Shown here one piece after another: positions 3,699-42,894 of a DNA stretch of 64,000 bases. Made by a program: the position numbers and the translations under genes. The DNA comes from Bacteroides sp. (GTDB lineage Bacteria; Bacillota; Clostridia; Lachnospirales; Lachnospiraceae). Each line of letters starts with the position of its first letter. Position 1 is the stretch's first letter. The notes beneath the pieces are model-generated. The model was not told the origin of the DNA. It searched no databases and was given only the letters and a program-made list of their open reading frames with translations. Where the stretch lies: contig JAMPBO010000003.1 in assembly GCA_023666705.1 (NCBI GenBank), positions 1-64,000 on the forward strand, written 5' to 3'.

Positions 3699-3906
3699 AA
3701 CAAAATGTTATTTACATATATATCTGGGATGCTCGACAACTCCTGTTTATTTTGAACCTACATTTTCTTTAAACGGGATTCCTATATCGTAGCCATATGT
3801 CAGGCCTCCGATTGCAGTGGAAGACAGAAAACTACGTGCGGTTGCCCACCTAGCTTTGCTAGGAGTCAAAAGGCAGGAACCGGCATTTCCGGATATATAT
3901 TTTTTT
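3699..3906 (+). ncRNA. ssrS: Probable 6S RNA
   Basis: A noncoding stretch of about 200 bases with its own consensus promoter. The ends pair: ATATATCTGG (near 3718-3728) with CCGGATATAT (3889-3899), followed by a T-run at 3900-3906, which gives a closing stem plus terminator. Inside are the strings I associate with Firmicute 6S RNAs: TTGAACCTACA, AAACGGGATTCC, GGCCTCCGATTGCAGTGG and AAGGCAGG, with a CCTAGC/GCTAGG hairpin near the 3' end. 6S RNA mimics an open promoter and sequesters vegetative RNA polymerase in stationary phase. Length and long, interrupted rod shape fit. A covariance-model search was not possible; another structured RNA cannot be excluded. Confidence 0.7.
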
Positions 3907-20812: not shown

Positions 20813-21062
20813 ATGTGAATAATTAGAAGCAAGGATGGTGCAACAAGGATTATCATATGCGGACAGAGATGAAAGGTCATGGGCTGAAAGCCTTTCTTCG
20901 TTTCGTGGTAGTCTCATTTTCACACCGGAGCTATGTGCCTGAACTAACAGTAGGGCACATCGTTTTATGTACGTTACACATAGCAAAGAGCAGTCTGTAA
21001 GGACTGAAAATGGGTGGTACCGCGGATTAGTTTCGTCCCTTATTTATAAGGGATTTTTTTAT
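20813..21062 (+). promoter_or_regulatory. T-box riboswitch (tRNA-Phe)
   Basis: The leader contains the T-box bulge sequence GGGTGGTACCGCGG (21012-21025), followed by a strong terminator, so it is the classic tRNA-sensing attenuator: uncharged tRNA stabilises the antiterminator and allows pheST transcription. TGGT would pair with an ACCA acceptor end, which suits a discriminator A, as in tRNA-Phe. TTC at 20919-20921, followed by A, is a candidate specifier codon for Phe on the 3' side of the stem I region. An ATGTGCC/GGGCACAT hairpin (about 20933-20961) is a plausible internal stem. Specifier assignment is inference from the downstream genes. Confidence 0.88.
21036..21062 (+). terminator. T-box attenuator terminator
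   Basis: Perfect stem TCCCTTAT (21036-21043) with ATAAGGGA (21046-21053), then eight T. Competes with the antiterminator containing the T-box sequence. Confidence 0.9.
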
Positions 21063-33214: not shown

Positions 33215-33859
33215 ATGCATATTACAAGGGATAATTATTCTTATTACGCAAAAATGGTGCAGATGATGGGAAACAATGCAGACAGCGGTGACTCATTGTC
33301 TGATTGTGATTACGGTAATTTTTCATTGCGGTTTCAGCCTGTCAATATTAAGTTTTCTAAGCCTGACTGGAACAAGATTATGACGAAACGTGATAAGCCT
33401 GCAATGTCGGAGGAAGAATTTGAGGAGGCAATCAAGGAACTGGCAAGGAAAGAATTTTCCACAGGAAAAAGAGACGATGCCGCATACAGAAAATTATGTA
33501 TGCAGCATGGAGAAACCGTATCTCCTGACAGAAAAGCAATTTACGATGCCAGCATGAAAAAAACAGGCGGAAAAATGAATGCCGCATGTATGTTTTGGGA
33601 TGCAAAAGGAAATAAAACCCTCTCCTATAATCCTGAATCAAGAAATTGGAAAGCTATAAGTACCGATGAGGAATTTGCCAGGGCAAGGGAATTTACATCC
33701 ATATACAATGAGGAATTAGCCCGCCTACGTAAGGAATATGGCGAAAATGCAAAAGGAACCGTATCCTATCAGCAGATAAAGTCTGATTCTGCTATGGGAG
33801 GTAGCGTAACGTCTGCGGCAGAAAAAGGAATGGGGGATTCACTTGATTTACGGATATAG
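33215..33859 (+). CDS. Hypothetical protein
   Basis: 214 residues, family not recognised. Hydrophilic, no membrane segment or signal peptide, rich in Lys, Glu and Met. It begins MHITRDNYSYYAKMVQMMGNN and ends in a Ser/Ala/Gly-rich tail. Strong AAGGAGGAG ribosome binding site 8 bases before the ATG. A possible promoter TTGGCT (33131) - 18 bases - TATAGT (33155) lies upstream, divergent from the ABC operon. The gene may be regulated together with that operon because the two share the same intergenic region (inference). Confidence 0.75.
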   Translation: MHITRDNYSYYAKMVQMMGNNADSGDSLSDCDYGNFSLRFQPVNIKFSKPDWNKIMTKRDKPAMSEEEFEEAIKELARKEFSTGKRDDAAYRKLCMQHGETVSPDRKAIYDASMKKTGGKMNAACMFWDAKGNKTLSYNPESRNWKAISTDEEFARAREFTSIYNEELARLRKEYGENAKGTVSYQQIKSDSAMGGSVTSAAEKGMGDSLDLRI

Positions 33860-33927
33860 TTGTTCGGCAATTGCAAAGCTTCATATAAACAAATTAACGA
33901 TTTTTCATAAGCACATTCGCAAATAGT

Positions 33928-33956
33928 TTCCACTCTTAATTATTTTGTGTTATAAT
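33928..33956 (+). promoter_or_regulatory. Extended -10 promoter of the hydrogenase-like/HD-GYP gene
   Basis: TGTTATAAT (33948-33956) is an extended -10; TTCCAC at 33928 is a poor -35 at 17 bases. Predicted leader of about 130 bases contains a 7-bp stem TTCCTTA/TAAGGAA (34025-34051). I see no known riboswitch in it. Confidence 0.5.
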
Positions 33957-34094
33957 GTTACATTATGTTGTAGTCTGTCAATTGCCAAAGTGATTTACAG
34001 CAATAGACGATAACAGCTATTCCGTTCCTTATATTTATCGTTTGTAAGGAAAAATGATTACGGGAAGATAGGTTGCAGAAGGGAGAAACAAATA

Positions 34095-36062
34095 ATGAGT
34101 CAGTTGGTCTATACGAACGAAAAGTGCCAGGGGTGTAACCGTTGCATTTCGGTCTGTCCGGTTTTGACTGCCAATTATTCTGTCCAGTCGGGAAATGGAC
34201 AGCGGATAGAGGTACATAGTGAAAACTGTATCGCATGCGGAGCCTGCTTTGATGTTTGTGAGCATAAGGCCAGAGAATATTATGATGACACGGAGCAGTT
34301 TTTCCGTGATTTAGAGCGTGGGGAGCAGATATCTGTGCTGCTGGCACCCTCCTTTCAGGCAAATTATCCAGAGGAATATGCCTCCATACTGGGTGGCTTA
34401 AAGGCTTTAGGTGTGAATCGGATTATCAGTGTCAGCTTTGGTGCTGACATTACGACATGGGGATACATCAATTATATTGCGGAGCATAAGCTGGAGGGAG
34501 GAATTTCCCAGCCATGTCCTGCAGTGGTAAATTATATTGAGCACTATGCACCGGATTTGATACCGAAGCTGGTACCGGTTCATAGTCCGTTGCTTTGTAC
34601 GGCGATTTATGCGAAGAAATATATGCATATTACGGATAAGCTTGCATTTATTAGCCCGTGTATTGCAAAAAAGGTGGAGATTACCGACCCGAATACGCAT
34701 GGCTATGTGTCTTATAATCTGACTTTTCAGCATTTTATGGAATATGCAGGCAGGCATCATATTTTTGGAGAGGATGCTACCGATGAGATTGAATATGGGC
34801 TGGGCTCTGTTTACCCTATGCCGGGAGGACTGAAGGAAAATGTCTACTGGTTTTGTGGTGAGGAAGCACTGATACGGCAGGTAGAGGGAGAAAAACGGGC
34901 ATATGACTTTTTGGAGGATTACAGGAAACGGCTGGCAAGAGGGCAGCGGCTTCCGTTTATGGTTGATATTTTAAACTGTGACCGTGGCTGCCTTTATGGG
35001 ACAGGTATTGAGATGGCAAGAAATTATTCCGAGGATAATTTTTATAATCTTCAGGAAATCAGAAAGGGATGCAAGAAAAGTGAGGGCGAAAATCCGTTTT
35101 CTGCAAGACTGGCACCAAAGCAACGGTTAGAACAGTTGAACCGACAGTTCTCGGAATTGGATATCCGGGATTTTATGCGGAGCTATACCGATAAATCAAA
35201 CACCATTTCCCTGCGTGAACCGAGCGAGAAAGAGTTGGATGAAATTTTTATTCTCATGAACAAAACGGATTGGGAGAAAAGAAATATTAATTGCGGAGCT
35301 TGCGGATATGGAAATTGCCAGGAAATGGCAGCAGCAATTTTTAACGGAAGCAATGTACCGAAAAACTGCGTACATTTTATGAAAGATGAAATAAATGAAT
35401 TTTCCGTCCAGTTGAAGGAACAGAATGCGGAATTAAAGCGTGTCATTCAGGAAGAAAAAGAAGGGGAACTGTTCATTAATCAGGTAATACGTGCCTTTGC
35501 AAAAAGCATTGACCTTAAGGATCAGTATACAAAGGGGCATTCTTTCCGTGTGGCAGAATATGCAAAAATGATTGCCGAAAAAATGGGATACAGCGATAAA
35601 ACCCTTGAAAACGTATATTATATTGCATTGCTTCACGATATTGGAAAGGTTGTAATTCCTGAGAAAATTTTAAATAAGCCCGGCAAGCTGACGGACGACG
35701 AGTATGAAACAATAAAAAAGCACGCACAGTATGGATATGATATTCTCAAGGAAATTGACTGCCTGCCGAATCTGGCATTGGGAGCGGGGTATCACCACGA
35801 GCGTTTGGACGGAAAAGGATATCCAAATGGAAAGCAGGCGGAGGAAATTCCGCAGATTGCAAAAATTATTGCAGTTGCAGATACCTTTGATGCTATGTAT
35901 TCAACCCGTCCGTACAGGGTACGTATGCAGATGGATGACATTGTTACCGAGCTGAAGCGGGTTTCAGGAACCCAGTTGGATGCGGAAATTGTAGACGTCT
36001 TTTTGGGACTGATTATGGAGGGCACCTTTGAGGAGAATGCATTGGTAGGAGATATAGTATGA
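34095..36062 (+). CDS. Ferredoxin - [FeFe]-hydrogenase-like - HD-GYP fusion, probable redox/H2 sensor
   Basis: 655 residues, cytosolic. Order: two [4Fe-4S] motifs (C11/C14/C17/C21 and C45/C48/C51/C55); a [FeFe]-hydrogenase large-subunit-like domain (about 75-345); a cysteine motif of the Fe-S (omega) type, CGACGYGNC with a later Cys (400-425); a coiled coil (about 430-460); and an HD-GYP domain (about 465-640) with LLHDIGK and the full HHERLDGKGYP. In the hydrogenase domain QPCP (Cys141), SPC (Cys189) and NCDRGC (Cys295, Cys299) line up with the four H-cluster ligands, while the proton-relay Cys of TSCCP is Pro140. So a cofactor could bind but fast turnover is unlikely. HD-GYP domains hydrolyse cyclic di-GMP; H2 or redox control of cyclic dinucleotide level is the inferred role. 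The stop overlaps aroA by four bases. Confidence 0.85.
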   Translation: MSQLVYTNEKCQGCNRCISVCPVLTANYSVQSGNGQRIEVHSENCIACGACFDVCEHKAREYYDDTEQFFRDLERGEQISVLLAPSFQANYPEEYASILGGLKALGVNRIISVSFGADITTWGYINYIAEHKLEGGISQPCPAVVNYIEHYAPDLIPKLVPVHSPLLCTAIYAKKYMHITDKLAFISPCIAKKVEITDPNTHGYVSYNLTFQHFMEYAGRHHIFGEDATDEIEYGLGSVYPMPGGLKENVYWFCGEEALIRQVEGEKRAYDFLEDYRKRLARGQRLPFMVDILNCDRGCLYGTGIEMARNYSEDNFYNLQEIRKGCKKSEGENPFSARLAPKQRLEQLNRQFSELDIRDFMRSYTDKSNTISLREPSEKELDEIFILMNKTDWEKRNINCGACGYGNCQEMAAAIFNGSNVPKNCVHFMKDEINEFSVQLKEQNAELKRVIQEEKEGELFINQVIRAFAKSIDLKDQYTKGHSFRVAEYAKMIAEKMGYSDKTLENVYYIALLHDIGKVVIPEKILNKPGKLTDDEYETIKKHAQYGYDILKEIDCLPNLALGAGYHHERLDGKGYPNGKQAEEIPQIAKIIAVADTFDAMYSTRPYRVRMQMDDIVTELKRVSGTQLDAEIVDVFLGLIMEGTFEENALVGDIV

Positions 36063-37336
36063 AATTGAAAAGGGTAAAAAATATAAATGGGGAACTGACT
36101 GTTCCGGGAGATAAATCCATATCACACAGAAGTATTATGTTAGGTTCCCTTGCAAAGGGGACAACGGAGGTGACGGGATTTTTGCAGGGAGCAGACTGTC
36201 TTTCCACAATCGCCTGCTTCCGTAAAATGGGTGTGGATATCGTGAACCAGAATGAAACGGTTGTCATCCACGGAAAAGGTATGAGGGGGCTTGAGGCACC
36301 AAGGGATACCCTTGATGTAGGAAACAGTGGAACAACGACAAGGCTCATGTCAGGTATATTGACTGCACAGCCTTTTTTGTCCCGTGTGACAGGGGATGCA
36401 TCCATACAAAAAAGACCGATGAAGCGGATTATAACACCGCTTGCCATGATGGGAGCGGATATACGAAGCGAGTTTGGCAATGACTGTGCACCGCTTGTAA
36501 TCAAAGGCACAAAGTTAAAGGGAATCAGTTATATGTCGCCTGTTGCATCGGCACAGGTAAAATCAGCCGTGCTCTTTGCAGGACTTTATGCAGAGGGAGA
36601 GACTTCGGTAACAGAGCCTGTTTTAAGCAGAAATCATACGGAGCTTATGCTGGAACAATTTGGTGTGGATATAAAATCGGAAGGAAAAACGGTAACAGTA
36701 TCACCTGCGGAGGAGCTTTTGGCAAGAAAAATAAATGTGCCGGGAGATATTTCTTCAGCAACCTATTTTATGGTTGCGGCTGCAATTACACCAAACTCCT
36801 GTGTAACGATAAAAAACGTCGGAATCAATCCTACAAGAGATGGAATTATAAAAGTTTTGAATAGGATGGGTGCGGACCTGTCGGTTGAAAATGTGTCCAA
36901 AACAGGAGAACCGACAGCAGATATAACAGTCAGAACATCAAAGCTTAAGGGCTGTGAGATTGGCGGAGACATGATTCCTACCCTAATAGATGAAATACCT
37001 GCAATTGCTGTTCTGGCATGTTTTGCAGAGGGAGAAACTGTTATAAGGGATGCGGAAGAATTAAAGGTAAAGGAATCAAACCGCATAGACGTTATGGTGT
37101 CTAACTTAAAAGCCATGGGTGCAGATATAGAGGCAACAGAGGATGGAATGATAATCAATGGTGGTAAAGACCTCCATGGTTCGCACATAGACAGTAAGCT
37201 TGACCATCGGATTGCAATGAGCTTTGCGGTTGCTGCCATGAATGCTGACGGTGAGACGGAAATAGACGGATTTGAATGTGTGGATATATCGTATCCAACA
37301 TTTTACAAAGACTTAAGCAGACTGGTTGCAGACTGA
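36059..37336 (+). CDS. aroA: 3-phosphoshikimate 1-carboxyvinyltransferase (EPSP synthase)
   Basis: 425 residues. Transfers the enolpyruvyl group of PEP to shikimate-3-phosphate. Motifs: VPGDKSISHRSIMLGSLA (Lys and Ser of the active site), LDVGNSGTTTRLMSG, RPMKRIITPL, PVASAQVKSAVLFAGL, RDGIIKVL, EIPAIAVLACFAEGETVI, LKVKESNRI, and DHRIAMSFAVAAM. Starts inside the end of the hydrogenase-like/HD-GYP gene (ATGA overlap), so its translation may depend on that sensor gene. No ribosome binding site other than GGAGATA in the upstream coding sequence. Confidence 0.96.
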   Translation: MKLKRVKNINGELTVPGDKSISHRSIMLGSLAKGTTEVTGFLQGADCLSTIACFRKMGVDIVNQNETVVIHGKGMRGLEAPRDTLDVGNSGTTTRLMSGILTAQPFLSRVTGDASIQKRPMKRIITPLAMMGADIRSEFGNDCAPLVIKGTKLKGISYMSPVASAQVKSAVLFAGLYAEGETSVTEPVLSRNHTELMLEQFGVDIKSEGKTVTVSPAEELLARKINVPGDISSATYFMVAAAITPNSCVTIKNVGINPTRDGIIKVLNRMGADLSVENVSKTGEPTADITVRTSKLKGCEIGGDMIPTLIDEIPAIAVLACFAEGETVIRDAEELKVKESNRIDVMVSNLKAMGADIEATEDGMIINGGKDLHGSHIDSKLDHRIAMSFAVAAMNADGETEIDGFECVDISYPTFYKDLSRLVAD

Positions 37337-38051: not shown

Positions 38052-38936
38052 TTAGTTGAAGATTTCATTTTTTAATTCTGTGATCTGTTCGATGGGAAGC
38101 CCTGAGTATTCGGAAATTTCCGCAACAGACAGTTTGCCAGCTTTCAGCATCTTGATTGCCAACTGCATTTTTTCCTGCTCGGCACCTTGTTCTAAGCCCT
38201 GCTCTAAACCTTGTGCAATACCTTGTTCCAAACCTTGCTCAATACCATCCTCTACGCCTTCTTCATATTTTTCCCGATAATGCATTTCAAGCGTCATATA
38301 ATCAACCCTCCACTTCTCATTGCTTCTTACGGACTTAACTGCGGTTTCCAGTTCTTCTGTAAAAGCATCCGATGCCGCCTGTCCGTCTATGTAATCCAGT
38401 AGCCGTTTCATTTCAGGCGTTACATCATTCATGGTTCCCTTGGTATTTAATATAATCTTTGTTGTCTCATCGCCAAGATCGATTTCATAATCCTGTAAAC
38501 ATCGGTTTTCAAATGTGTAAATGTGCCGTCCCTTACCGAATAAATCAAAGGTGCAGATAAAAATGACAAAGCTCCGTTTTAGATCTTTGTAGTCTCCGCC
38601 CTTTTCCAGTATGTTCAGGTCTATCATCCCCTGATAATATCGTGACCGCTTCGGCAGGTTTTTATTTATGGATACCTGCATCTCTATATTATATACCGTA
38701 CTTTTGTCATCTTCAACATAAACATCAAGCCTTACAGACTTTGCATCTGCCGCAAGGTCTATTGTTTCCTGCGTTCTTGGATATTTTATGTCTGATATAC
38801 GGATACCAAGTATTGTTTCCAGAAACGGCTTGCAGTACTTGGGGTTCCGCATAATAACCCCAAACATGAAATCATCCTTAAGTTCCAGTTCCTCAAAGCG
38901 TTTGACGTTTTTCTTTTCGTTCTTGTTTTTGTTCAT
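38052..38936 (-). CDS. Rpn family recombination-promoting nuclease / PD-(D/E)XK protein
   Basis: 294 residues. Starts with a basic tail, then FEELELKDDFMFGVIM and LDVYVEDDKSTVYNIEMQV, which contains the D-x(n)-E-x-Q pattern of the PD-(D/E)XK core in Rpn/transposase_31 proteins. E. coli RpnA-E are DNA endonucleases that promote RecA-independent recombination; family members are often found in several near-copies per genome. Residues near 232-258 form a run of four-residue units of the type G-L-E-Q, encoded by 12-base tandem repeats, then a helical C-terminus with LSVAEISEYSGLPIEQI. Upstream is dispersed repeat copy B. Confidence 0.88.
   Translation of the reverse strand: MNKNKNEKKNVKRFEELELKDDFMFGVIMRNPKYCKPFLETILGIRISDIKYPRTQETIDLAADAKSVRLDVYVEDDKSTVYNIEMQVSINKNLPKRSRYYQGMIDLNILEKGGDYKDLKRSFVIFICTFDLFGKGRHIYTFENRCLQDYEIDLGDETTKIILNTKGTMNDVTPEMKRLLDYIDGQAASDAFTEELETAVKSVRSNEKWRVDYMTLEMHYREKYEEGVEDGIEQGLEQGIAQGLEQGLEQGAEQEKMQLAIKMLKAGKLSVAEISEYSGLPIEQITELKNEIFN
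38181..38252 (-). repeat. Six 12-bp tandem units in the Rpn-family gene
   Basis: Six imperfect 12-base units on the plus strand (type AAACCTTGCTCx) encode consecutive GxEQ-type tetrapeptides. Whole-unit gain or loss would keep the frame, changing protein length without inactivating it. Confidence 0.8.
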
Positions 38937-39454: not shown

Positions 39455-41560
39455 TTGAAAAAGTATAAAAATCGTATTTTGCTTATTTGTACATGTGGTT
39501 TTGCTATTATATTTATAGTCGCTTTGTTGAGCTGGTTTTATAATCAGCTTAACGTGAAATCCTACAACATTACGATTGAGAACACGATAGAGCTTGCGGA
39601 GCATGACCGCATATCAATAGAGGCTGTGAATGATACAAACTGGGAAATGGCGGAATCCATTCATTATCGTATGCTACGTTATGGATATAAAAGTCTGGAT
39701 GAAATGCAGGCACAGCTGAATGTAGAACAAAATTCAAGTACCTTTGAAAAAATATATTATATCACGCAGGATGGAATGGCATATTCGGGTGATTATACAA
39801 TAACAAAGGAAGAAAAATTCCAACAGGCATTTCTTGACAATGACGGACGCTTTGTTATGCGTCTTGATAACACAGACGGCATTATGAACGAAATGAAAAA
39901 GGAATATCTGGTTTATGGTATTTCCATTAAGTCGTTTGAGTTAAACGGTATTGTTTTTACGGGCATGGTTTGTCAAATGTCACTGGACACAATCCACAAT
40001 ACCATGATGATTGAAAGCTATGACGGACAGGGGTATAGCAGTGTAATAGACATGGAGGGTAATTATATTGTCAGGGTCAACCGCAGCTATGATGTATTAT
40101 TCCGTGAAAATTTTTTTGAAGGCTTAAGTCATGGTTACATAGATGGTAAGGCGGTCAATGTGGATGCGGTTATGCAAAAAATGCGTGACAAGGAGCGGTT
40201 TACCCAAACCTATATAGACGATGACAAAAACGAAAAAATCGTAACTTTCTGTCCTGTGGAAGATACGGACTGGTATTTTATCATTGTGATTTCCGACAGC
40301 ATTGTAAAAAGCCAAAGTAACAGCCTGATGCGAATGTCCGCAATTATAATTGCCATTATACTGATTGTCATCGGACTGATTGCGACACTGCTGTTTGTCA
40401 CTGCAAATAAATCCGTAAAAGCAACGGCACAGGTGGAAGCCAGAAGTGATTTCCTGTCAAATATGAGCCATGAAATCAGGACACCGCTTAACGGACTGAT
40501 TGGTCTTAACTATCTTATGCAGGAGAATATCAGCAATGAGGAAAAACTACAGGATTACCTGAAAAAATCTGCTGATACGGCACAATATCTTCTGTCACTT
40601 GTGAATGATATTTTAGATATGTCAAAGCTGCAGGCGGGAAAGGTGAATTTGTTTTATGAGCCTGTGAATTTAATTGATGTAATAGACAATGTAGCGTCCA
40701 TGCAGCGGTTTAATATCGAGGAGCGTGGTATAAGGTTTATCGTGGAGACAGAGGCGGAGTATCCTGTGATAGAGTGTGACGAAACACGGTTGAAGCAGGT
40801 GCTTATGAATTTGTTAAGCAATGCGGCAAAGTTTACGCCATCAGGCGGTCATATCCTGCTAAAGCTATGGCAGGATAAGGCACAAAATGATAAGGTTTGT
40901 ACATATTTTAAGGTAGAGGACAGTGGCTGTGGAATGAGTAAAGAATTTTGTAACCATATATTTGAGGCATTCACACAGGAAAAAGGAGCGAACACGAAAA
41001 GCCAAAAGGGCACAGGTCTTGGAATGGCAATCAGTCATCTGCTGATGCAGTCCATGCAGGGTGATTTGAGTGTTGAAAGCGAATTAGGGAAAGGAAGCTG
41101 TTTTACTGCAAAATTTACCGCAAAGGTTATGGATGATGTGGACGATAAGACGGTTCACACTGAAAATATAAAAGAAACAGAAATCGGGAATCTGCATATT
41201 TTAATTGCAGAGGACAATGAGCTGAATGCTGAAATATTGACAGGTATATTGGAAGGTGTTAATGCTAAGGCGGAGATTGCCCAAAATGGTCAGGAAGCAG
41301 TCGATAAATTTTCTGCATCCGGGGTCGGGGAATATGATGTTATTTTAATGGACGTTCAAATGCCTGTTATGAATGGCTATGAAGCAGCACAGGCAATCCG
41401 GAAGCTGAACCGTGATGATGCAAAATCAGTTATTATATTTGCGTGTACGGCAAATACCTTTCGTGAGGATGTGGACCGTGCCATTGAGAGCGGCATGAAT
41501 GATTTCCTTGGAAAACCAATTGATGTAAATGAGTTGATGAGAAAGCTGAGGGGTATATGA
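39455..41560 (+). CDS. Hybrid sensor histidine kinase / response regulator
   Basis: 701 residues. TM1 (about 9-28), an extracytoplasmic dCache-like sensing region of about 260 residues, TM2 (about 293-316), HisKA with FLSNMSHEIRTPLNGLIG (phospho-His near 339), HATPase with LMNLLSNAAKFTPSGG (N box), VEDSGCGM, FEAFTQ and GTGLGMAI, then a C-terminal receiver with AEDNELN, LMDVQMPVMNG (phospho-Asp near 632) and GKP. The signal would pass by phosphorelay to an unlinked partner; no DNA-binding output domain is attached. TTG start at 39455 follows GGAGGTGG. The stop overlaps the next gene by four bases. Confidence 0.93.
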   Translation: MKKYKNRILLICTCGFAIIFIVALLSWFYNQLNVKSYNITIENTIELAEHDRISIEAVNDTNWEMAESIHYRMLRYGYKSLDEMQAQLNVEQNSSTFEKIYYITQDGMAYSGDYTITKEEKFQQAFLDNDGRFVMRLDNTDGIMNEMKKEYLVYGISIKSFELNGIVFTGMVCQMSLDTIHNTMMIESYDGQGYSSVIDMEGNYIVRVNRSYDVLFRENFFEGLSHGYIDGKAVNVDAVMQKMRDKERFTQTYIDDDKNEKIVTFCPVEDTDWYFIIVISDSIVKSQSNSLMRMSAIIIAIILIVIGLIATLLFVTANKSVKATAQVEARSDFLSNMSHEIRTPLNGLIGLNYLMQENISNEEKLQDYLKKSADTAQYLLSLVNDILDMSKLQAGKVNLFYEPVNLIDVIDNVASMQRFNIEERGIRFIVETEAEYPVIECDETRLKQVLMNLLSNAAKFTPSGGHILLKLWQDKAQNDKVCTYFKVEDSGCGMSKEFCNHIFEAFTQEKGANTKSQKGTGLGMAISHLLMQSMQGDLSVESELGKGSCFTAKFTAKVMDDVDDKTVHTENIKETEIGNLHILIAEDNELNAEILTGILEGVNAKAEIAQNGQEAVDKFSASGVGEYDVILMDVQMPVMNGYEAAQAIRKLNRDDAKSVIIFACTANTFREDVDRAIESGMNDFLGKPIDVNELMRKLRGI

Positions 41561-42894
41561 TGAAATGGAGGAATGCAGTTGTGAAAAAAATATCAGTAAC
41601 GGTCATATTGATGGTGTTATTCAGTGTTATTATGGCAGGATGCGGCAACAAAAAGGAGACAGTGACAATTAATATCAAGGTTCCAACCCTTACAATGTCA
41701 ACACCGGCGGATTCTGACGTGACATCAGCACTTATTTTCCTTGAAAAGGTCAAGGAGGATTTTGTGGAGCAATATGAGGATGCAGATGTAATTATCAACC
41801 TGACGGAATTTGATCTGGTCAAAGAGGATGAAGCGATAAAAGGCTGCTTCGACACGGACGACGCAGTGGATGTGCTGTATGAGGGATATTTTAATATGGC
41901 AACTTATATACATACGGGCAGGGTTGTTCCACTGGATGATATCATTTCCAGTGATTTGCGTGCGGATATTAATCAGAGTTATTGGGATATGAGCAGCATA
42001 AATGGGAAAACATATATGATGCCGTTTTTGAGTCTCCAAAATATTATGGTATATAATAAAGAGCTGATGCGTAATGCGGGCTTGGATCAATATATTGGCG
42101 ATGATGAGGAAATACAAAACTGGAGTCTGGAGGAGTGGGAGGAAATTCTTTCCACATTGAAAAAAAACAATCCGGAGGGTGTTTATTGTATGCCGATGTA
42201 TGCAGGAAATAATCAGGGAGATACGCACGTTATGTCGTTAATACGGTCCCAGGGAAGTGATTTTTTCGATGAAAACGGACGTTTCTACATCAATACGCCT
42301 GAGGGTATTGCAGGTTTACAGTGGATTAAGGACAATTATGACAAGGGTTATTTTCCACCGCACTGTGCTGATATGGAAATTAACGATATGGGAGAGCTGT
42401 TCTATAACGGACAAATGGTTTTGTATATCGGAAATAACGCCATGAATGATGACGTAACGGACATTGATTATGGAATGGTAAATTTCCCATGTGCCAGCGG
42501 CAATGGGATTGCGACATCGTTTGTGACAGGATTTGAGGTGTTTGATAACGGAGACGAGGCAAAATTAAAGGTTGCAAAGGATTTTGTAAAATATGTTTAT
42601 GAAAATGAAAAATGGATGGATTATTCAGCAGGCGGTATTCCTGCAAGTAATACCATAGCACAAAAATACAAAAGTGATATAAAACGGCTTCATGCGTATA
42701 TCGAGAATGCTGATAATGTGGTGGATTTCACCAATAACAATCCGAACTGGCGGGGTGTGAGAGATGTATTTTATCCAATAATCAATGATTTGCTGTCAGG
42801 TGAAATAACCGCTGCGGAAGCTGCAGAAGCACTGGACAGAGATTGTAATAATGCGATTGAGGAGGGGTATGAGAGCAGTACCCTTCATGATTAA
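41557..42894 (+). CDS. Extracellular solute-binding lipoprotein coupled to the hybrid kinase
   Basis: 445 residues. Signal peptide with lipobox VIMAGC (lipidated Cys about 28), then a type-1 substrate-binding fold as in carbohydrate ABC importers: LDDIISSDL, YMMPFLSLQNIMVYNKELMRNAGL, WSLEEWEEILSTLKK, TPEGIAGLQWIKDNYDKGYFPP, and GIATSFVTGFEVFDNGDEAKLKVAKDFVKYVY. No permease or ATPase gene adjoins it. The start overlaps the kinase stop, so the two are made together; the likely role is to present a ligand to the kinase sensor domain instead of a transporter (inference). ATG 41560 is an equally possible start. Confidence 0.9.
   Translation: MMKWRNAVVKKISVTVILMVLFSVIMAGCGNKKETVTINIKVPTLTMSTPADSDVTSALIFLEKVKEDFVEQYEDADVIINLTEFDLVKEDEAIKGCFDTDDAVDVLYEGYFNMATYIHTGRVVPLDDIISSDLRADINQSYWDMSSINGKTYMMPFLSLQNIMVYNKELMRNAGLDQYIGDDEEIQNWSLEEWEEILSTLKKNNPEGVYCMPMYAGNNQGDTHVMSLIRSQGSDFFDENGRFYINTPEGIAGLQWIKDNYDKGYFPPHCADMEINDMGELFYNGQMVLYIGNNAMNDDVTDIDYGMVNFPCASGNGIATSFVTGFEVFDNGDEAKLKVAKDFVKYVYENEKWMDYSAGGIPASNTIAQKYKSDIKRLHAYIENADNVVDFTNNNPNWRGVRDVFYPIINDLLSGEITAAEAAEALDRDCNNAIEEGYESSTLHD

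Follow-up and report, generated by a model that had tools for sequence, protein, structure and literature searches.

A single gene in the window, the 64,000-nucleotide stretch of DNA from a gut bacterium of the Lachnospiraceae analysed here (assembly GCA_023666705.1, contig JAMPBO010000003.1, positions 1 to 64,000), joins a putative sensory [FeFe]-hydrogenase module to an HD-GYP phosphodiesterase domain. The fusion is encoded by an ATG-initiated open reading frame (ORF) at 34095–36062 (+), which specifies 655 amino acids and is backed by its Pfam domains and by 16 full-length orthologues. We propose, with a probability of about one half, that the product is a cytosolic one-protein converter in which H2 or the redox state of ferredoxin, read by an H-cluster sensor, would be turned into a change in cyclic-dinucleotide level. 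Direct support comes from the architecture, the conservation of cofactor and metal residues, the grouping of all copies in one clade, purifying selection, a paralogue in the same genome, and the hydrogenase maturases and GGDEF proteins encoded there.

The original prediction, made from the sequence alone, placed two ferredoxin-type clusters, a hydrogenase-like domain, an extra cysteine motif and an HD-GYP domain in one chain, and Pfam agrees on each of them. The N-terminal di-cluster ferredoxin domain (residues ~5–60, 34107–34274, +; Fer4_10 at residues 5–55) carries Cys 11, 14, 17 and 21 together with Cys 45, 48, 51 and 55. The [FeFe]-hydrogenase domain (residues 79–302, 34329–35000, +), identified by Pfam, profile alignment and predicted structure, matches Fe_hyd_lg_C with E 1.5e-28 in one stretch that spans all four H-cluster cysteines, and their predicted places at 141, 189, 295 and 299 proved right by both Pfam and the profile. 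In the main segment of the alignment to a profile of 72 sensors (72 of the 81 sensor rows entered one alignment, A2, and 47 the other, A1), C141 and C189 coincide with H-cluster ligands of hydrogenases of solved structure. The last two ligands are matched by C295 and C299 in a segment apart from the main one, which has little significance of its own (i-Evalue 18 for CpI). The proline foreseen at the proton-relay position beside the first ligand is P140, which within SQPCP occupies the place of the relay cysteine (CpI 299), and the TSCCP motif of the catalytic groups A and B is not kept. The pocket further contains K192, equivalent to the Lys of MPCxxK, P85 of the AP motif and S164-P165. All four H-cluster cysteines are kept in 72/72 aligned sensors, in which the pocket positions examined, Lys192 included, are likewise invariant. 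The four-cysteine site may hold an H-cluster and react with H2.

The extra cysteine motif (35286–35372, +; Pfam and alignment) reads C400-x2-C403-x4-C408-x16-C425, lies within a match to the FeS domain PF04060 (residues 398–426), and is identical to the C-terminal cluster motif published for the sensory groups C and D. By pattern match the Cx2Cx4Cx16C spacing is present in 173 of 180 relatives, and the L1 pattern reads Pro in 147 of them, another residue in 3 and gives no reading in 30, some of the 180 rows being duplicates. A long predicted helix (residues 426–471, 35370–35507, +), assigned by DSSP on a model whose predicted local distance difference test score (pLDDT) is mostly below 60 here, connects sensor to output. 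It is followed by the HD-GYP domain (residues 468–632, 35496–35990, +; HD_5, E 1.9e-36), in which Pfam and alignment place the ligands H482, H514-D515, H543, H567-H568 and D596; every metal-binding His and Asp is present, and the HDIGK and HHExxDGxGYP motifs said to be retained are found as HDIGK at residues 514–518 and HHERLDGKGYP at 567–577. The top two NCBIfam matches, both under the cut-off, were monomeric [FeFe] hydrogenase B1 and c-di-GMP phosphodiesterase response regulator.

By these features the protein classes with the putative sensory [FeFe]-hydrogenases (groups C/D, M2f/M2e). The papers on TamHydS and TmHydS describe as sensory features the C-terminal Cx2Cx4Cx16C motif, loss of C299 and alteration of M353 and M497. 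Both enzymes share with the window protein two N-terminal [4Fe-4S] clusters, the H-domain, the C-terminal motif and the loss of the C299 equivalent, and TamHydS also has Ser and Leu at the M353 and M497 positions, where the window protein has Ser187 and Leu293. TmHydS runs on into a PAS domain, whereas TamHydS has none, and a Pfam search admitting E values up to 0.1 likewise showed none after the C-terminal cluster of the window protein. The descriptions of the two enzymes name no cyclic-dinucleotide output, and both were studied in vitro whereas the window protein is known from its sequence. Proline at the proton-relay position is found in about 10% of the HydDB sensory set (PMC10055695), and a 2022 review still terms the sensory role putative, with physiological evidence wanting (PMC8924675). 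The [FeFe] groups that HydDB lists, all as putative, are C1 (histidine kinase-linked), C2 (chemotactic, with a methyl-accepting chemotaxis protein (MCP) domain) and C3 (serine/threonine phosphatase-linked), so that an HD-GYP output lies outside the C1–C3 outputs listed there. The window protein is closest in kind to C2, known here by its description: the sensor is of the same kind, and its nearest relatives and own-genome paralogue end in MCP, but its own output is HD-GYP in place of the MCP signalling domain. A fusion of hydrogenase and HD-GYP was not found described in the open-licence literature, judged by titles and the starts of abstracts.

Genomes from 84,980 species were scanned with patterns derived from the window protein, and the best 80 of 158 loci comprised 16 full-length fusions (72–87% identity, one genome per species) and 64 loci in which the same sensor has an MCP-type output. 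The homologues of the same domain order for which the original prediction proposed to search thus number at least 16, together with a copy from another genus that is cut at a contig edge (L039, 74% identity). Across the window protein and the 16 full copies, 18 of the 20 cysteines are kept in 17/17 (the 16 cluster-motif cysteines, C168 and C254), C326 in 16/17 and C556 in 12/17. The HD-GYP ligands H482, H514, D515, H543, H567, H568 and D596 are kept in 17/17 as well, and variation within the GYP motif is limited to its two x residues. The ratio of nonsynonymous to synonymous substitution (dN/dS) against the window gene is ~0.05–0.07 for the sensor and ~0.05–0.09 for HD-GYP (10 of the 16 copies; synonymous sites unsaturated), and both halves are under purifying selection. 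Since all 17 copies keep the cysteine and motif positions and dN/dS is low, a chance fusion is ruled out.

In the mechanism that we envisage, the hydrogenase domain and the clusters of ferredoxin type would respond to H2, to the redox state of ferredoxin or to both, by way of an H-cluster site suited to binding and not to fast turnover. The signal would then pass to the C-terminal cluster domain and through the long helix to the HD-GYP domain as a conformational change, and the phosphodiesterase would shift the level of c-di-GMP (cyclic di-GMP) or a related cyclic dinucleotide. What we infer for the fusion protein itself is that the cofactor is bound, what its ligand and substrate are, and in which direction the output is controlled.

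The full-length structural model is of low confidence (pLDDT 63.5, predicted template modelling score 0.53; poor over the N-terminus and HD-GYP), and the sensor was modelled separately. Several observations weigh against the proposal. The Foldseek template modelling scores of 0.55–0.64 by query across the 50 matches listed refer to model residues 1–369 only, the C-terminal cluster domain being barely covered. The oxidation state of the C-terminal cluster of TamHydS is described as unresponsive to H2, which is why a conformational relay is preferred here over a redox relay. The c-di-GMP-I riboswitch (RF01051) was not found in the window's own genome by a search that matched no control genome either, no conserved gene neighbour of the fusion was found among the 17 loci compared, and the window's contig yielded no other PF02906 gene. 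Among the 397 family genomes, 176 have HydG, and its presence does not follow the sensor: it was found in 38 of 83 sensor genomes and in 138 of the 314 that lack the sensor (Fisher p = 0.80). A sensor genome is defined here by an N-terminal match with E no higher than 1e-60, which scores genomes with more distant modules as negative. HydG was not found in 22 of the 44 sensor genomes that are at least 97% complete, and 8 of the 16 fusion genomes gave no HydF match at E 1e-50.

This independence of sensor carriage from HydG keeps in contention a sensor free of an H-cluster, in which cubanes only, with no [2Fe] subsite, would report ferredoxin redox state or oxygen to HD-GYP and H2 would be irrelevant; the missing HydF matches and the lost proton-relay cysteine point the same way. 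We nevertheless regard such a redox sensor as rather unlikely. The pocket positions that are invariant among the aligned sensors are also the same in all eight fusion copies whose genomes are HydF-negative, and characterised sensory enzymes are reported to take up the [2Fe] cofactor in vitro. The window's own genome encodes all three maturases, with HydF and HydG adjacent on contig 31 and HydE on contig 25, outside the window, and these permit an H-cluster in the fusion protein. Furthermore, a TSCCP hydrogenase is encoded in 7 of the 8 HydF-negative fusion genomes (in one as a contig-edge piece), so that the lack of HydF extends beyond the sensor to other hydrogenases and the absence of a maturase may be a gap in the data; we therefore did not accept the absence of HydF as proof that there is no H-cluster. 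Either the assemblies of such genomes are incomplete or their hydrogenases mature by an unexpected route; maturases are frequently absent from these assemblies or else dispensable where a need for them was assumed. The HydF-negative assemblies with TSCCP hydrogenases are those that carry L113, L114, L119, L120, L121, L124 and L136. The window's own genome holds three PF02906 genes, one of which (L001) has TSCCPAW.

Returning to the H-cluster converter, its output domain presumably acts on c-di-GMP or a cyclic GMP-AMP (cGAMP). The closest solved relative of the HD-GYP domain is the cGAMP-specific V-cGAP3 (5z7c, 145.9 bits), followed by PmGH (4mcw, 132.3 bits); both share the catalytic domain and the HD-GYP motifs with the window protein and differ from it in their sensor domains. 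In the alignment Tyr478 stands at the position of PmGH E185, which we take to be the glutamate that binds the third metal, and this substitution suggests a two-metal site in the window protein. V-cGAP3 likewise has Tyr here and outscores PmGH, so a working sensor might instead control hydrolysis of a 3',3'-cGAMP; we consider this improbable, as sequence similarity among HD-GYP domains is an unreliable predictor of substrate and the 19 GGDEF matches above cut-off in the genome give c-di-GMP the prior. The same genome has one PilZ match, and the cyclic di-GMP genes that the original prediction proposed to look up are thus present; its interpretation as a whole, a hydrogen or redox sensor coupled to cyclic-dinucleotide signalling, is partly supported. 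A link from H2 to c-di-GMP has been proposed before, for the putative diguanylate cyclase-linked [NiFe] group 2c of HydDB, but that protein is an unrelated [NiFe] enzyme and is tied to making, not breaking, c-di-GMP.

The same sensor is found with several outputs. In the survey of 397 family genomes, of which 107 gave a match with E no higher than 1e-60 and some of these through HD-GYP alone, N-terminal matches were classified except for six contig-edge or partial rows (three in G285 and one each in G313, G333 and G355). The 100 ORFs comprise 80 with MCP-type outputs, a call that stands, here as for the 64 loci above, for a match (E up to 1e-3) to the C-terminal part of the own-genome paralogue and was checked with Pfam for that paralogue only, 8 with histidine kinase, 8 with GGDEF-EAL and 2 with HD-GYP (the window and L039), besides 1 stand-alone sensor and 1 truncated second copy (L035). 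In the eight GGDEF-EAL proteins the GGDEF signature was matched in 0/8, EAL in 5/8 and DDFG in 7/8, by patterns that variants may escape, and most of these proteins therefore also look like phosphodiesterase outputs. They are L044, L046, L047, L049, L053, L055, L056 and L057. The sensor thus appears to be wired to chemotaxis, to phosphorelay and to cyclic-dinucleotide breakdown through two unrelated folds, HD-GYP and EAL. A survey at the level of the order gave matches in 93 of 392 genomes, in which the window alone covers the full length of the query.

On a tree of 178 sensor regions, built by a quick method with midpoint rooting and a long-branch warning, the 18 HD-GYP rows require one change and form a clade (Shimodaira–Hasegawa-like approximate likelihood ratio test 97) nested in the large MCP part, while the EAL rows require two changes and the kinase rows six. 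One output-domain swap accounts for the fusion, given that a single HD-GYP clade is nested among MCP relatives, and the fusion is apparently conserved and of single origin. It would have arisen in Lachnospiraceae from a sensory hydrogenase already present, whose methyl-accepting chemotaxis output gave way to HD-GYP. Replacement of the MCP domain at the long helix, near residues 440–460, is the simplest account, with the junction placed where the MCP relatives cease to match. The nearest HD-GYP outside the fusion in the family survey is 65% identical and lies in L040 (982 amino acids, Reg_prop-Y_Y_Y-HD-GYP); the swapped domain probably derives from receptors of this type, while L040 itself differs from the fusion in having a beta-propeller sensor and no Fe-S match.

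At least one further module-like protein (frames of 598–712 amino acids) was found in 13 of the 16 fusion genomes, and in four of the 16 a second locus is MCP-type (L149/L124, L164/L116, L167/L121 and L175/L119, same contig sets). The window's own genome has the MCP paralogue L002, 60% identical across the sensor and identified as MCPsignal by Pfam. With a chemoreceptor version in the same genome, one stimulus could reach both chemotaxis and cyclic-dinucleotide turnover. In a bolder form of the proposal, which we hold tentatively and at less than even odds, H2 binding would directly gate the phosphodiesterase in the same chain, H2 would with the paired chemoreceptor set both swimming direction and the motile or sessile state, and the family would have recruited HD-GYP and EAL behind one sensor. 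The alternative of a catalytic hydrogenase with slow turnover, its C-terminal domain being incidental or degenerate, could cite the hydrogenase fold and the four ligands but is very improbable given the loss of TSCCP, the HD-GYP ligands kept in all 17 copies under purifying selection, and the MCP, kinase or EAL outputs behind the same sensor elsewhere, which indicate a signalling role. The converter would, if real, tie H2, a central gut gas, to second-messenger control in Lachnospiraceae. The fusion seems to connect in a new and conserved way a sensor that is known but poorly understood and is more often attached to a chemotaxis receptor domain. Since the sensor is covalently joined to an easily assayed enzyme domain, whether H2 binding at the H-cluster signals becomes testable in vitro, with no kinase or chemotaxis pathway to reconstitute.

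Upstream of the fusion gene a ribosome-binding-like stretch, AAGGGAG (34079–34085, +), was read from the sequence 9 bases 5' of the ATG. A promoter-like site, TTTCCA-18-TATAAT (33927–33956, +; 10/12), is a candidate only and no better than chance, the region holding 10 such sites against 8.8 (standard deviation 2.9) in shuffles. Downstream, aroA (5-enolpyruvylshikimate-3-phosphate synthase; 36059–37336, +; from the ORF and flank comparison) overlaps the fusion gene by the 4 bases ATGA. It was found beside the fusion in the window only and at none of the other 17 copies (flanks up to 6 kb, shorter at several loci), and is for this reason probably not part of the system. A conserved operon partner was rejected, as only generic clusters recur across the 17 loci and at differing places: an ABC-ATPase cluster at 9/17 and a kinase-containing cluster at 6/17. 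Further sharing of neighbours is confined to close relatives (L119/L120/L121/L123, L124/L136, and pairs such as L112/L114).

Directly upstream of the fusion gene lies a 214-residue ORF with no Pfam match (33215–33859, +), and a PD-(D/E)XK (PDDEXK_2) transposase-family nuclease is encoded nearby (38052–38936, −). The interval 39455–42894 (+) holds a hybrid histidine kinase-receiver with a TTG start, which overlaps by 4 bases the gene of an extracellular solute-binding protein. Rfam gathering matches elsewhere in the window are a 6S RNA (3718–3899, +) and a T-box leader (20823–21043, +).
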